DNA of 64,000 nt from the NCBI GenBank assembly GCA_002841495.1, contig PGZV01000022.1:31751-95750 (forward strand). Reading direction: 5' to 3'. Of the stretch, positions 43,838 through 48,655 are shown one piece after another. Source of the stretch: Firmicutes bacterium HGW-Firmicutes-2 (GTDB lineage Bacteria > Bacillota > Clostridia > Lachnospirales > Vallitaleaceae). Under the pieces are notes generated by a model. That model saw only the letters and a program-made list of their open reading frames with translations, made no database searches and was not told the origin of the DNA. Position numbers and translations under genes: made by a program. The stretch's first letter is position 1. Every line of letters starts with the position of its first letter.

Positions 43838-43952
43838 ATGGTTTCCTTTCCTTTCAGATTCATTCAAAGCTAACCTTGATTTTATTATATAGGATTTCAT
43901 AAACATTGCAACCAAGATCAATGTGTCAAAACTCGAAAAAGCAGGTGACAAT

Positions 43953-46900
43953 ATGATACAACTCACTTTACAATGGATTAAGACTTTTGCCGGTAATGAT
44001 CGGAAGTTCAAATCCGGCTTTATGATTCATCAACAAAATAATATACTCAGCATTGAAGCCAGCTCAAAAAATGGCTTTCATGTTATCTTAAAAGACTTAA
44101 AAGATGAACCTTTTGATCTCTATTTATCTTTTTATTCTGATACCGGCACCTTTAAAAATTCCAGATGCACCTGCTATGATCCAGAGCCATGTATTCACAC
44201 AATAGCGGCTTTGTTATATATACTTTATAAGAAAGAGTCCTTGACTCTTGATCTCACCCATAACCAAACCCTGAAAATGTTCCAGTCCTTTGAACATGTA
44301 CTCTATGATCCTACATCTTCCAATCAACAGGCGCTCTTAAATCTAGAAGTGAATCTGCATCCGAAGGATGCTTATCACAAAACCCTTCAATCGGCCATCT
44401 CTCTAAAAGTAGGGCTCTACCAAACCTATGTGGTCAAAAATATTGAAGCTTTCATCTATGCCGTTATGGAAAAACATGTTTATGAATTATCAAAAAACTT
44501 AACTTATGACCCAAATACGTTTACTTTCAATGAGGAAGACGGCAAACTTATCGCTTTGCTTTATGATTTTTATAAAACGCGTCTATTTTTACTGCCAAAA
44601 CGTCAGAGCTTAGTCACCACGCCGATTAAGGCGTCTTACCAAATCTTGCCGGATACGTATTTGAAAAGGTTGCTAGAACTTCTAAAATACAGGCCCTTTA
44701 ATTTGGACTATGATGGTATGCTCTTTAAAGACCAGGAAATCATAGACCATTTGGAGGTGGATCTCTTCTTGATGGAAGAGAACGGTCACTATAACATCTC
44801 CGTCAACGCCTATGATATATATTTTCCATTAACAGAAGATTTTTCATTTGCTTTTTATAACAACCAGATTAGTTACCTATCTTCCAAAAAAGCAGACGCA
44901 TTCAAGCTCTTTTACACCTATTTCAATGATAAATCCCTAGATATTCAATTTGACCATATTCATAATTTTATGAATCAAATCTTACCTGTACTTGAAATGA
45001 TTGGTTATGTTACCCTTGAACCTACTGTTGCTCAAAAAGTACTACGCTATCCTTTAGATGCAAAAATCTATTTGGATAAGGATATGGAACAACTTAAGCT
45101 TAGGGCATTTTTCATCTATGGTCCTTATGAATTTGGCCTCTATCCCGAATCCGATCCTGAACCGGGTGACCAAATTATTTTCAGACACTTGGATATTGAG
45201 CAACGTATTCGACAATTACTCAAAGATACCCCTCATACCATTGATTCAAGAGGACTCTTAACACTTGCATCCGAAGATGATCAATTTCATTTCATCGATC
45301 AAGTTCTACCAAAGCTCCAAAAGCTTGGGAGCCTTTATTACTCAGATACGTTTAAAGACACTTACTTACGATCTGAAAAACAGCTCAGTGCCTCTGTTGC
45401 ATACAACAGCAGTTCCAATCTTTTGGATCTAAGCTTTGAAATGGAGGGTATCAGTCAAGAAGAAATATTCACACTTTTAAAAGCCATTGTAGAGAAGAAA
45501 CGCTACTTCAAATTATCTGATGGCAGCTTTTTCAAGATACAAGATACCTTAGCCCATCAAATGAGTGTTCTAGATAGCCACTATCCTCTTATGGACTCCT
45601 ATCAAGAAGGTAACCCCTTAAGCCTTCCGGGACACCATGCTTTCTTCTTAGATCATCTTATGAGCAATACACAAACCGTCCACTACAATCAAGCTTATAA
45701 GAAGCTATTAACTGCCATTCAAAATCCTGAAACTTACTTGATTGAGGTGCCAAAACATCTTGACAGCATATTAAGGGATTACCAAAAAACCGGTTATCGC
45801 TGGCTTAGTGCGCTTACTTCATATGGACTTGGCGGCATTTTAGCGGATGACATGGGACTTGGTAAGACATTACAAGCCATCACGCTGATGACGAGTTATG
45901 GTGCAAGCTTACCCTCTCTCGTTATTGCTCCCACATCTTTACTCTATAATTGGGAGGAAGAAGTACATAAATTTGCACCCAATCAGAAAACCATTGTCAT
46001 TTCAGGTAATAAAAATGAACGTATTGAGCAAATTGAAAACCTATGCAATGATGTCATCATCATTACCTCTTACGGTGCCCTTAAAAGAGATCTACACCAT
46101 TATAAACAGACTTTTATGTTTTGTATTATTGATGAAGCCCAACATATCAAAAATCCAAAATCTCAAAACGCCATTGCCGTTAAACATATTCACGCTTTGC
46201 ATCGTTTTGCTTTGACCGGTACACCTATAGAAAATACGCTAACAGAACTATGGTCCATATTCGATTTTATTTTACCGGGCTTCTTAGGCAATGCCCATTA
46301 TTTTGCTAAAACCTATGAACGGCCCATCACCAAGGACAACGATTATCATTGTTTAAAGCAGCTAAATCAAATGATTGCACCTTTTATTCTAAGGCGCATC
46401 AAACAAGATGTGTTAAAAGAGCTACCACCTAAGATTGAAACTAAGGTGACCATTGAGCTTAATAAACATCAGAAAAAAATATATATGGCCTACATTGAAA
46501 AAGCAAAAATGGAAATGGAAAGCTTTAAATATGTGTCCGGCGGTCAAAAAAATATGAAGATCCTCTCTATACTCATGCGCTTACGACAGATTTGTTGTCA
46601 TCCATCCTTGTTCATCGATCAGTATACCCATGGATCTTCTAAAATGGACTTGCTTTTGGAATTGGTCATGGACAGTATTGAAAGTGGTCATCGTATGTTG
46701 ATTTTTTCACAGTTCACTTCCATGTTAGGTATGATACAGACTTTACTGGATAAGCATAAAATCGAATCCTATTATCTTGATGGTTCTGTACCACCTAACA
46801 AGCGGCAGGAAATGGTCCATGACTTCAATACAGGTTTCCACAGTGTTTTCTTAATATCACTTAAAGCCGGCGGAACGGGACTTAACTTAACCGGTGCTGA

Positions 46901-47156
46901 TGTTGTGATTCATGTTGATCCGTGGTGGAATCCTGCGGTAGAAAGCCAAGCGACGGATCGTGTCTATCGCATCGGTCAAAAAAAATGTGTTCAAGTCTAC
47001 AAGTTAATCACAGCCGGTACCATCGAAGAAAAGATATTTACATTGCAGCAGAAAAAGCAAAATCTCATTGAACATGTTATTAAGCCTGGTGAAACGTTCA
47101 TTAATAAATTAACCGCCCATGAACTTCAAAATCTTTTTGATTCAGAACCAAAATAA
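43953..47156 (+). CDS. SNF2-family helicase with SWIM zinc finger
   Basis: This 1067-residue protein has an N-terminal SWIM finger (CTCYDPEPCIH at about residue 68), a long middle region with repeated hydrophobic segments, and a C-terminal SNF2/Rad54 ATPase: DDMGLGKTLQAI (motif I), IIDEAQHIKN (motif II), GTPIENTLTELWSIFDF, and QATDRVYRIGQKK (motif VI). Related proteins are translocases associated with DNA or transcription; the target is unknown. The start is at 43953, after GCAGGTGAC. The gene's 3' end meets the structured region at 47157, whose 17-bp inverted repeat with a T-run may terminate it. Confidence 0.93.
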   Translation: MIQLTLQWIKTFAGNDRKFKSGFMIHQQNNILSIEASSKNGFHVILKDLKDEPFDLYLSFYSDTGTFKNSRCTCYDPEPCIHTIAALLYILYKKESLTLDLTHNQTLKMFQSFEHVLYDPTSSNQQALLNLEVNLHPKDAYHKTLQSAISLKVGLYQTYVVKNIEAFIYAVMEKHVYELSKNLTYDPNTFTFNEEDGKLIALLYDFYKTRLFLLPKRQSLVTTPIKASYQILPDTYLKRLLELLKYRPFNLDYDGMLFKDQEIIDHLEVDLFLMEENGHYNISVNAYDIYFPLTEDFSFAFYNNQISYLSSKKADAFKLFYTYFNDKSLDIQFDHIHNFMNQILPVLEMIGYVTLEPTVAQKVLRYPLDAKIYLDKDMEQLKLRAFFIYGPYEFGLYPESDPEPGDQIIFRHLDIEQRIRQLLKDTPHTIDSRGLLTLASEDDQFHFIDQVLPKLQKLGSLYYSDTFKDTYLRSEKQLSASVAYNSSSNLLDLSFEMEGISQEEIFTLLKAIVEKKRYFKLSDGSFFKIQDTLAHQMSVLDSHYPLMDSYQEGNPLSLPGHHAFFLDHLMSNTQTVHYNQAYKKLLTAIQNPETYLIEVPKHLDSILRDYQKTGYRWLSALTSYGLGGILADDMGLGKTLQAITLMTSYGASLPSLVIAPTSLLYNWEEEVHKFAPNQKTIVISGNKNERIEQIENLCNDVIIITSYGALKRDLHHYKQTFMFCIIDEAQHIKNPKSQNAIAVKHIHALHRFALTGTPIENTLTELWSIFDFILPGFLGNAHYFAKTYERPITKDNDYHCLKQLNQMIAPFILRRIKQDVLKELPPKIETKVTIELNKHQKKIYMAYIEKAKMEMESFKYVSGGQKNMKILSILMRLRQICCHPSLFIDQYTHGSSKMDLLLELVMDSIESGHRMLIFSQFTSMLGMIQTLLDKHKIESYYLDGSVPPNKRQEMVHDFNTGFHSVFLISLKAGGTGLNLTGADVVIHVDPWWNPAVESQATDRVYRIGQKKCVQVYKLITAGTIEEKIFTLQQKKQNLIEHVIKPGETFINKLTAHELQNLFDSEPK

Positions 47157-47314
47157 GTTGTCTTTGGTTATGAGATAGCTTTAATTCTCAACTGTAACTC
47201 TTGGTTATAATCGTAGATATAACACACAGCTTTTCCTCGCCTTACACTTCGTACGGTCATCGGAAAACCTATGTATCACATCTACTCGGTAATAGGTCGT
47301 CATTTCGTCAATAC

Positions 47315-47405
47315 AAAGCGCTGATCAATCATCCTTCTCTTTTACATCCATGTAAAAATGAAGGACGTTCTACATCCATGTAGAACTGTGATTGATCAGC
47401 GCTTT
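47315..47405. repeat. Inverted-repeat element with two CA(TGGA)TG-loop hairpins
   Basis: A perfect 17-bp inverted repeat (47315-47331 with 47389-47405) encloses two hairpins: TTTTACA-TCCA-TGTAAAA (47340-47357, with TCCTTC/GAAGGA outside) and GTTCTACA-TCCA-TGTAGAAC (47367-47386). The right arm runs into TTTTTCTTT, so on the plus strand it can terminate the SNF2 gene. On the minus strand the loops read TGGA in the context ACATGGATGT, the CsrA/RsmE hairpin consensus. Confidence 0.6.
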
Positions 47406-47442
47406 TTCTTTCCTCATTCCAGAAATGCAATAATAGGCCAAA

Positions 47443-47573
47443 ATCGACCATGAAGTTCCTGAAGCAGCGTGTAAGATGGAGCTAGTCAGCATGGATGCTG
47501 ACCGTCGACTTTTGGTGCATGGATGCACCAATTGGAGACCGTAATCATACACACTGTGAAAGGGTTTTCATGG
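47443..47573. repeat. Second element, opposite orientation, with two CA(TGGA)TG hairpins
   Basis: Two hairpins, GTCAGCA-TGGA-TGCTGAC (47485-47502) and TTGGTGCA-TGGA-TGCACCAA (47512-47531), share the apical octamer of the first element but have different stems. They are enclosed by imperfect outer stems (47465-47477 with 47544-47556; CCATGAA 47448-47454 with TTCATGG 47567-47573). The first 32 bases match the half-copy at 24159. Confidence 0.55.
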
Positions 47574-47626
47574 GACCTACTTCAAAAATGCTCTCATTTT
47601 GTCACTTAAAAAAGCGCTTTTAACCC

Positions 47627-48655
47627 CTATAACTTCCTAGCAATTTCTCTTATCAGTGCTTCAGAAGCTTCCCAACCTAGGCAAGGATCTGTTATGGATT
47701 TTCCGTAAATGCCCCCGTCTATCCCTTGAGCGCCTTCTTCAATGTAGCTTTCTATCATCAAACCTTTGACGTACTTCTTAAAGTCAGCATCATAGTGACG
47801 ATTCCTTATGACCTCATAAGCAATGCGCGGTTGTTCTTCGAAATGTTTGTTCGAATTGGCATGATTTAAGTCTATAATCACACTTGGATGTTGTAACTCT
47901 CTTTCTTCATATAACTTAATTAAATGACGAATATCCTCATAATGATAGTTAGGAAAACTTCTACCATATTGGTCAACATAACCACGCATGATAGAGTGGG
48001 TAAGAGGATTCCCCGTTGTTGCCACTTCCCATCCTCTGTAAATGAATGTATGCTCAATCTGACCCGCTTTTATCGCGTTTAACATAACCGATAAATCACC
48101 ACTGGTTGGGTTCTTCATACCTGATGGAATTTCTAACCCGCTTATAGTCAAACGATGCTGTTGGTTTTCGACAGACCTTGCACCGATGGCAACATAGCTT
48201 AGAAGGTCCTCAAGATAGGCATAATTATCCGGATATAGCATTTCATCCGCACAAGATAGCCCGGCTTCTTCTATGGCTCTTATATGTAGATTTCTGATGG
48301 CCTTAATGCCTTCTACCATATTGGACTCTTTATTGGCATCCGGTTGATGCACCATCCCCTTATAGCCCTCTCCTGTTGTTCTAGGCTTGTTGGTATAGAT
48401 CCTTGGAATGATAACAATCTTATCTTCTACTTCTTTTTGAATCTGACTTAGGCGTTTCACATAATCAATAACCGCCGTTTCATTGTCCGCTGAACAAGGT
48501 CCGATAATCAAAATAAAACGCGAATCTGTTCCTTCGAATATATTCTTAATGATTCGATCCCTTTCAGCTTTTATTTTGTGACCCTTTTCAGACAGAGGTA
48601 ACATATCGATAATCTCTTGTGATGATGGTATTTCCTGTACAAAATTAAAACTCAT
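47627..48655 (-). CDS. aroF: 3-deoxy-7-phosphoheptulonate synthase (DAHP synthase, type I)
   Basis: DAHP synthase joins PEP and erythrose-4-phosphate at the start of the shikimate pathway. The 342-residue length and the order of motifs (LIIGPCSADNE, RIYTNKPRTTGEGYKGM with the PEP-binding KPRTT, EEAGLSCADEML, WLAIGARSVENQ-type VAIGARSVENQQHR, HANSNK) fit the AroF/G/H type I enzyme. Feedback type cannot be told from this view. It stands alone, without other shikimate genes nearby, and the ATG follows GAGGATT. Confidence 0.95.
   Translation of the reverse strand: MSFNFVQEIPSSQEIIDMLPLSEKGHKIKAERDRIIKNIFEGTDSRFILIIGPCSADNETAVIDYVKRLSQIQKEVEDKIVIIPRIYTNKPRTTGEGYKGMVHQPDANKESNMVEGIKAIRNLHIRAIEEAGLSCADEMLYPDNYAYLEDLLSYVAIGARSVENQQHRLTISGLEIPSGMKNPTSGDLSVMLNAIKAGQIEHTFIYRGWEVATTGNPLTHSIMRGYVDQYGRSFPNYHYEDIRHLIKLYEERELQHPSVIIDLNHANSNKHFEEQPRIAYEVIRNRHYDADFKKYVKGLMIESYIEEGAQGIDGGIYGKSITDPCLGWEASEALIREIARKL

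Follow-up and report, generated by a model that had tools for sequence, protein, structure and literature searches.

The 64,000-nucleotide stretch of DNA analysed here (the window) belongs to a draft genome of 3.52 Mb in 35 contigs that is 98.19 percent complete. A SNF2-family helicase gene and a DAHP synthase gene converge in it on a composite repeat unit of three modules, C, A and B (Table 1). The first-pass annotation had described four hairpins with an ATGGAT loop, an outer inverted repeat around each pair and one two-site unit per orientation, and all of this is borne out: the hairpin pair at 47339-47386 is on the minus strand and the pair at 47485-47531 on the plus strand, a larger inverted repeat encloses each pair, and the sense strand is minus for module A and plus for module B. 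The span given there (47315-47573) comes close to the repeat unit but is short of its actual extent. The hairpin at 47339-47358 has a T-G outermost pair and six Watson-Crick inner pairs. In this convergent setting, each gene has one two-hairpin unit in sense, whichever way the composite unit is oriented.

Table 1. Features at the locus, and two element-carrying insertion sequences of the related genome G003. R1 and R2 are models of modules A and B, respectively.
Feature	Position	Strand	Basis or remark
SNF2-family helicase gene on the left, transcribed towards the element	43923-47156	+	Pfam PF00176, PF08455
Composite repeat unit (modules C + A + B)	47204-47576		Core common to the window copy and the inverted G003 copy at the same site
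Module C, long near-perfect hairpin, repeats together with module A	47213-47293 (ends approximate)		20 full ungapped copies aligned
Module A, outer stem and two AUGGAU hairpins	47304-47417	- (GGA strand)	R1 match, 133.8 bits
Module A outer stem, left arm AAAGCGCTGATCAATCA	47315-47331		Sequence
Module A hairpin TTTTTAC-ATGGAT-GTAAAAG, candidate CsrA-type site	47339-47358	-	Sequence/fold
Module A hairpin GTTCTAC-ATGGAT-GTAGAAC, candidate CsrA-type site	47367-47386	-	Sequence/fold
Module A outer stem, right arm TGATTGATCAGCGCTTT, then T-rich run on plus strand	47389-47405		Sequence
Module B, palindromic outer stem CCATGAA..TTCATGG and two AUGGAU hairpins	47445-47576	+ (GGA strand)	R2 match, 147.7 bits
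Module B hairpin 1, GTCAGC-ATGGAT-GCTGAC, candidate CsrA-type site	47485-47502	+	Sequence/fold
Module B hairpin 2, TTGGTGC-ATGGAT-GCACCAA, candidate CsrA-type site	47512-47531	+	Basal stem with tandem G-A pairs
DAHP synthase gene on the right, transcribed towards the element (convergent)	47627-48655	-	Pfam PF00793
UPF0236-type insertion sequence with B element	L100 3601-5536		G003
ISL3-type insertion sequence with B element	L102 3685-5381		G003

A single hairpin of such size is unremarkable by chance. The window holds four hairpins with an ANGGAN loop and a stem of at least 6 pairs (G-T allowed), and 40 dinucleotide shuffles gave 1.7 on average and no more than 5. Chance does not give four hairpins with one loop within 200 bp, repeated genome-wide with covarying stems. 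Rfam matches to miRNA and snoRNA families in the window were all far below the gathering score and were discarded.

Model R1 was built from 11 copies of module A and R2 from 9 copies of module B. The search of the genome and its relatives proposed in the first-pass annotation found many scattered copies of both modules, mainly in one genus. In a set of 59 genomes of relatives that includes the source genome, R1 matches five and R2 six. Within the genus, R2 gives at least 38 matches in the source genome (G000), at least 27 in G001, at least 24 in G002 (86 percent complete) and at least 52 in G003; outside it, there are at least 6 in G004 and at least 2 in G013, with up to 57 candidates scored in each genome. 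The raw R1 counts for the four genomes of the genus (33, 11, 22 and 29) include opposite-strand shadow matches, because the outer stem of module A is palindromic; the source genome has 17 distinct module A places among the matches listed. A third model, R3, was built from an alignment of 26 diverse members, dispersed elements only. It also matches module A (71 bits at 47311-47403) and module B (76.6 bits at 47468-47559) of the window.

A pattern scan of genome contigs returned 20 stretches, nine from Petrocella FN5, six from a Firmicutes MAG and five from other groups; R3 matched all three of the Firmicutes stretches tested and none of the five from other groups. Petrocella is placed in Lachnospirales, Vallitaleaceae by the NCBI taxonomy. 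Carriage by phages or plasmids was considered and dropped, as blastn found no match to 47200-47580 in either collection. Viral carriage was likewise rejected: ten viral stretches fit a loose pattern and R3 matched none of them. Five module B copies (L024, L102, L010, L154 and L156) have an extra inserted hairpin, GCATCATGTCAGTCTTCAAGACATGATGC or close variants, and a AAACTTTCTTATGAAATTTG-like stretch inside the outer stem.

The site itself differs among relatives. In G001 it is empty, with 49 bases between matching flanks that end at both stop codons; G003 has the whole unit in opposite orientation, and G002 has a shorter version, likewise inverted. Thus, the unit comes, goes or flips. Exchange of the interior between orthologous copies was also considered and was dropped because element and flanks show similar identity.

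The empty site, the inverted copies and the dozens of copies in composite and inverted arrangements could all arise from a miniature mobile DNA element (REP/BIME, MITE or similar), in which a transposase would recognize single-stranded or cruciform hairpins and the GGA loop would be the transposase signal. Y1-type transposase genes (PF01797) occur in 11 of 17 element-bearing genomes, which fits such an element; PF01797 also covers IS200/IS605-type enzymes. Against it, the other six genomes, the source included and some of them drafts, have no Y1-type gene, and no target duplication was found at the one site compared, that of the window. The elements resemble REP/BIME in being dispersed palindromic intergenic repeats with many copies and inverted pairs; they differ from them in that no Y1-type transposase was found in the source genome and in having an RNA-type pairing bias. 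The first-pass annotation had set a two-site sponge against a REP-type element and held that scattered copies flanking a RAYT gene would favor the latter. Both readings proved partly true, the elements being dispersed, multi-copy and variable in site while carrying CsrA-type RNA sites; the scattered copies exist, and the Y1-type transposase is absent from the source genome.

Selection on structure, which the first-pass annotation had claimed, is upheld by the alignments: the stems covary while the loops keep GGA. Among the 26 diverse members the covariation score was 0.687, compared to 0.198 after shuffling and 0.15-0.21 after sliding. Twenty of 22 pairs are changed on both sides; this count by itself is no higher than in shuffled data, 245 of 500 shuffles attaining it. 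In the same alignment hairpin 1 shows no variation in the columns C-A-.-G-G-A-.-G, and conservation in hairpin 2 is at least 90 percent for each of C, G, G, A and the closing G. GGA is kept in 157 of 158 module B loops (79 distinct copies) and in 51 of 54 module A loops (27 copies), with loops of varying length (AUGGAU, AGGA, AGGAA, AGGAC, AGGGAC and others). The outer stem of module A also covaries among aligned copies. At the base of B hairpin 2, a tandem G-A motif is present in 58 of the 79 distinct copies, and the pairs flanking it switch together, GTC/GAC in 29 copies and GCC/GGC in another 29.

The pairing also indicates which strand is used. At Watson-Crick-majority pairs of module B, read on the GGA strand, there are 84 G-U and 12 A-C cells (24 vs. 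9 columns, p 0.014). Module A has 30 and 9 cells, respectively, and its columns do not differ significantly (15 vs. 9, p 0.31). The cell counts are not independent because the rows are related. Of the two strands, the one with GGA gives the more stable fold in 78 of 80 B sequences and in 25 of 27 A sequences. In a wider set the strand test is weak (14 G-U vs. 9 A-C, with the sense strand more stable in 14 of 18). Module C, with an inner sequence conserved across its 20 full ungapped aligned copies, has 8 G-U and 3 A-C, counts that do not inform on its strand. A cruciform should tolerate G-T and A-C equally, and the 84:12 ratio of module B therefore speaks against a mobile DNA element, as does the recurrence of a similar loop in flagellin leaders (see below). 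Such an element is considered unlikely as an explanation of the hairpins.

An RNA of this architecture is already known from the Rfam family TwoAYGGAY (RF01731), which was linked to CsrA in a 2014 paper by Gardner and Eldai. The sites of modules A and B themselves fit the same protein, as discussed further on. In that paper TwoAYGGAY and the reverse complement of Bacillaceae-1 were proposed as CsrA-binding RNAs, so the CsrA idea for such an architecture is not new (PMC4333381). Modules A and B share with TwoAYGGAY the outer stem and the two hairpins with AYGGAY-type loops. Tandem G-A pairs in one stem are also named for TwoAYGGAY (PMC4333381). In module B such pairs are those of the basal part of hairpin 2, in the loci of relatives they are, by eye, in hairpin 1, and none were seen in module A. 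Unlike TwoAYGGAY, however, modules A and B have no RF01731 match, reach tens of copies per genome and are carried inside IS elements. RF01731 has no match in the source genome at E up to 1, in the window at gathering score or in 47100-47700 at E up to 10. It matches 12 of the 59 relatives at E up to 1, three of them above gathering score, and 39 of 43 loops in 20 RF01731-matched loci keep GGA.

In the shared alignment and in R3, both modules show the TwoAYGGAY architecture, in which an outer stem surrounds two hairpins with loops of the form A-N-GGA-N. R3 matches at least 33 of 392 genomes of the order at E up to 0.01 (best 10 or fewer candidates per genome). On the shared alignment and the R3 matches, modules A and B are best regarded as a divergent and greatly multiplied branch of the TwoAYGGAY architecture, though non-members by the Rfam cut-off. 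What is new here is the Petrocella branch missed by the Rfam model, its multiplication, inversion, site turnover and carriage in two IS families, as well as the strand test, the co-occurrence with csrA and the flagellin-leader match. Tandem arrays of elements were found in G055 and G021; loci L202, L201 and L217 are such arrays of two-hairpin TwoAYGGAY-like units, with a period near 175 bp in G055. Arrays of this kind would make multi-site CsrA decoys.

The source genome does contain csrA, whose presence the first-pass annotation had suggested checking, in the gene order fliW-csrA-flagellin. The CsrA site obtained by SELEX is RUACARGGAUGU, mostly with six-nucleotide loops (PMC7652899). With GGA in a hairpin loop, the element sequence ACAUGGAUGU resembles this site, in line with the match to the CsrA/RsmE consensus noted earlier. 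The element stems of 6-8 pairs are longer than in most SELEX ligands, among which very stable hairpins looked unfavorable (PMC7652899).

The flagellin leader of the source genome contains the hairpin GTGCCAGC-ATGGAA-GCTGGCAT. An ANGGAN hairpin with a stem of at least 5 pairs is present in 10 of 18 flagellin leaders (0.1 expected from shuffles). Of the eight that fail this strict rule, seven have a GGA hairpin whose stem is shorter or whose loop differs in size, and that of G005 has only the Shine-Dalgarno one. R3, although derived from dispersed elements only, also matches the G013 flagellin leader. Repression of hag by CsrA in Bacillus subtilis works through two sites in the hag leader, with binding upstream of and at the Shine-Dalgarno sequence (PMC7652899); the fliW-csrA-flagellin order and the GGA hairpin in the leader are similar here. 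The hag site acts in cis in a 5' leader, in contrast to the dispersed elements, which are two-hairpin units mostly at gene ends. Taken together, the covariation with GGA loops, the G-U excess and the flagellin-leader hairpin favor a CsrA-binding RNA over a DNA palindrome.

The distribution of csrA agrees with this. It is present in all 24 genomes with a best R3 E-value up to 1e-4, compared to 225 of 392 overall (Fisher p 9e-7, uncorrected for phylogeny), many of the 24 having contributed rows to R3. One of these matches, in G064, proved to be false, as it lies in coding sequence (an MDGVLID-type hydrolase motif by eye); without it, the count is 23 of 23 (p 1.7e-6). By genus, it is 10 of 10 vs. 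110 of 174 (p 0.009). At the looser cut of E up to 0.01, csrA is found in 31 of 33 genomes, the exceptions being G049 and G111 with one weak match each. In the smaller set, all 17 genomes with any R1, R2 or RF01731 match have csrA, vs. 49 of 59. Many element-free genomes also have csrA. RNA elements of this form could in principle bind a GGA-loop protein other than CsrA; this is considered very improbable, since a like hairpin stands in the flagellin leader beside csrA and the co-occurrence, for which csrA and Y1_Tnp were compared, is with csrA.

The setting of the elements was counted at 89 module B places with a crude open-frame caller, more than one copy of the same IS being included. The gene on the 3' side faces module B in 62 of the 75 cases called, at a median distance of 59.5 nt and within 150 nt in 53 of the 62; the gene on the 5' side is co-directional with it in 45 of 68. 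Since the 3'-side neighbor is thus mostly on the opposite strand, the nearest gene reads module B antisense, and sense transcription of B needs the other neighbor or a promoter of its own. A promoter scan within the element was at chance level (3 found vs. 3.4 expected).

A position behind and between convergent genes is also expected of bidirectional terminators or mRNA 3'-end stabilizers, in which the loop would be incidental. A terminator scan of 46900-48000 gave two sites vs. 0.4 expected, both on the minus strand within or beside the modules, and T-rich runs lie outside the stem of module A in most aligned copies. However, none of the B copies listed has a T-run directly after the stem, and a plain terminator needs neither a near-invariant GGA loop nor a second hairpin at fixed spacing. 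This explanation is regarded as improbable.

Two insertion sequences of G003, unrelated to each other, have a B element on the strand of their transposase gene, 12-30 nt past its stop codon. Further copies of them are 98-99.9 percent identical, element included. UPF0236 proteins are taken here to be ISLre2-type transposases. Just outside the UPF0236-type insertion sequence lies a c-di-GMP-I riboswitch (L100 3434-3520, minus strand, 85.9 bits).

As a homodimer, CsrA can bind two RNA motifs, one per half (PMC4333381). In the elements two GGA hairpins, 27-28 nt apart, are held by the outer stem, and such a pair looks built for one CsrA dimer. Modules A and B are thus probably a dispersed structured RNA family, each apparently seating a CsrA dimer and all together acting as a distributed decoy. 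The CsrA reading of the elements is well supported by computation; binding, transcription and net titration are what we infer from sequence. Most of the elements sit just behind genes, often between convergent ones, and two IS families have one immediately after the transposase gene. When the GGA strand is transcribed, as a 3' end or by read-through, its paired hairpins would bind CsrA. Present in tens of copies per genome, the elements would form a shared decoy that may release flagellin mRNA and other targets from CsrA; G003 would have over 100 GGA hairpins if each of its at least 52 module B matches carries two. The elements may also stabilize or mark the transcripts carrying them, and they may equally well act in cis on the host transcript.

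CsrB, CsrC and RsmX/Y/Z are single sRNA genes with many sites. The present elements resemble them in their repeated GGA hairpin loops as (here predicted) CsrA sites; unlike them, the elements have two sites each and are scattered over the genome, in Clostridia. CsrA RNA decoys were described in 2014 as known only from Gammaproteobacteria (PMC4333381). Among the matches listed in a search covering mostly open-access literature, no publication was found that connects dispersed repeats or IS elements of Clostridia with CsrA sites.

A further, tentative suggestion is a genome-wide and partly IS-borne CsrA buffer, in which FliW and the distributed RNA decoy might jointly set CsrA and the element-carrying insertion sequences might be under CsrA control or exploit it. 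According to a 2020 review, it has yet to be established for any species whether FliW and sRNAs act jointly on CsrA (PMC7652899). As the source genome has fliW beside csrA together with dozens of candidate CsrA RNAs, this question becomes directly testable there. The elements also suggest how a regulatory RNA site may multiply into a family of repeats that transposons then acquire.
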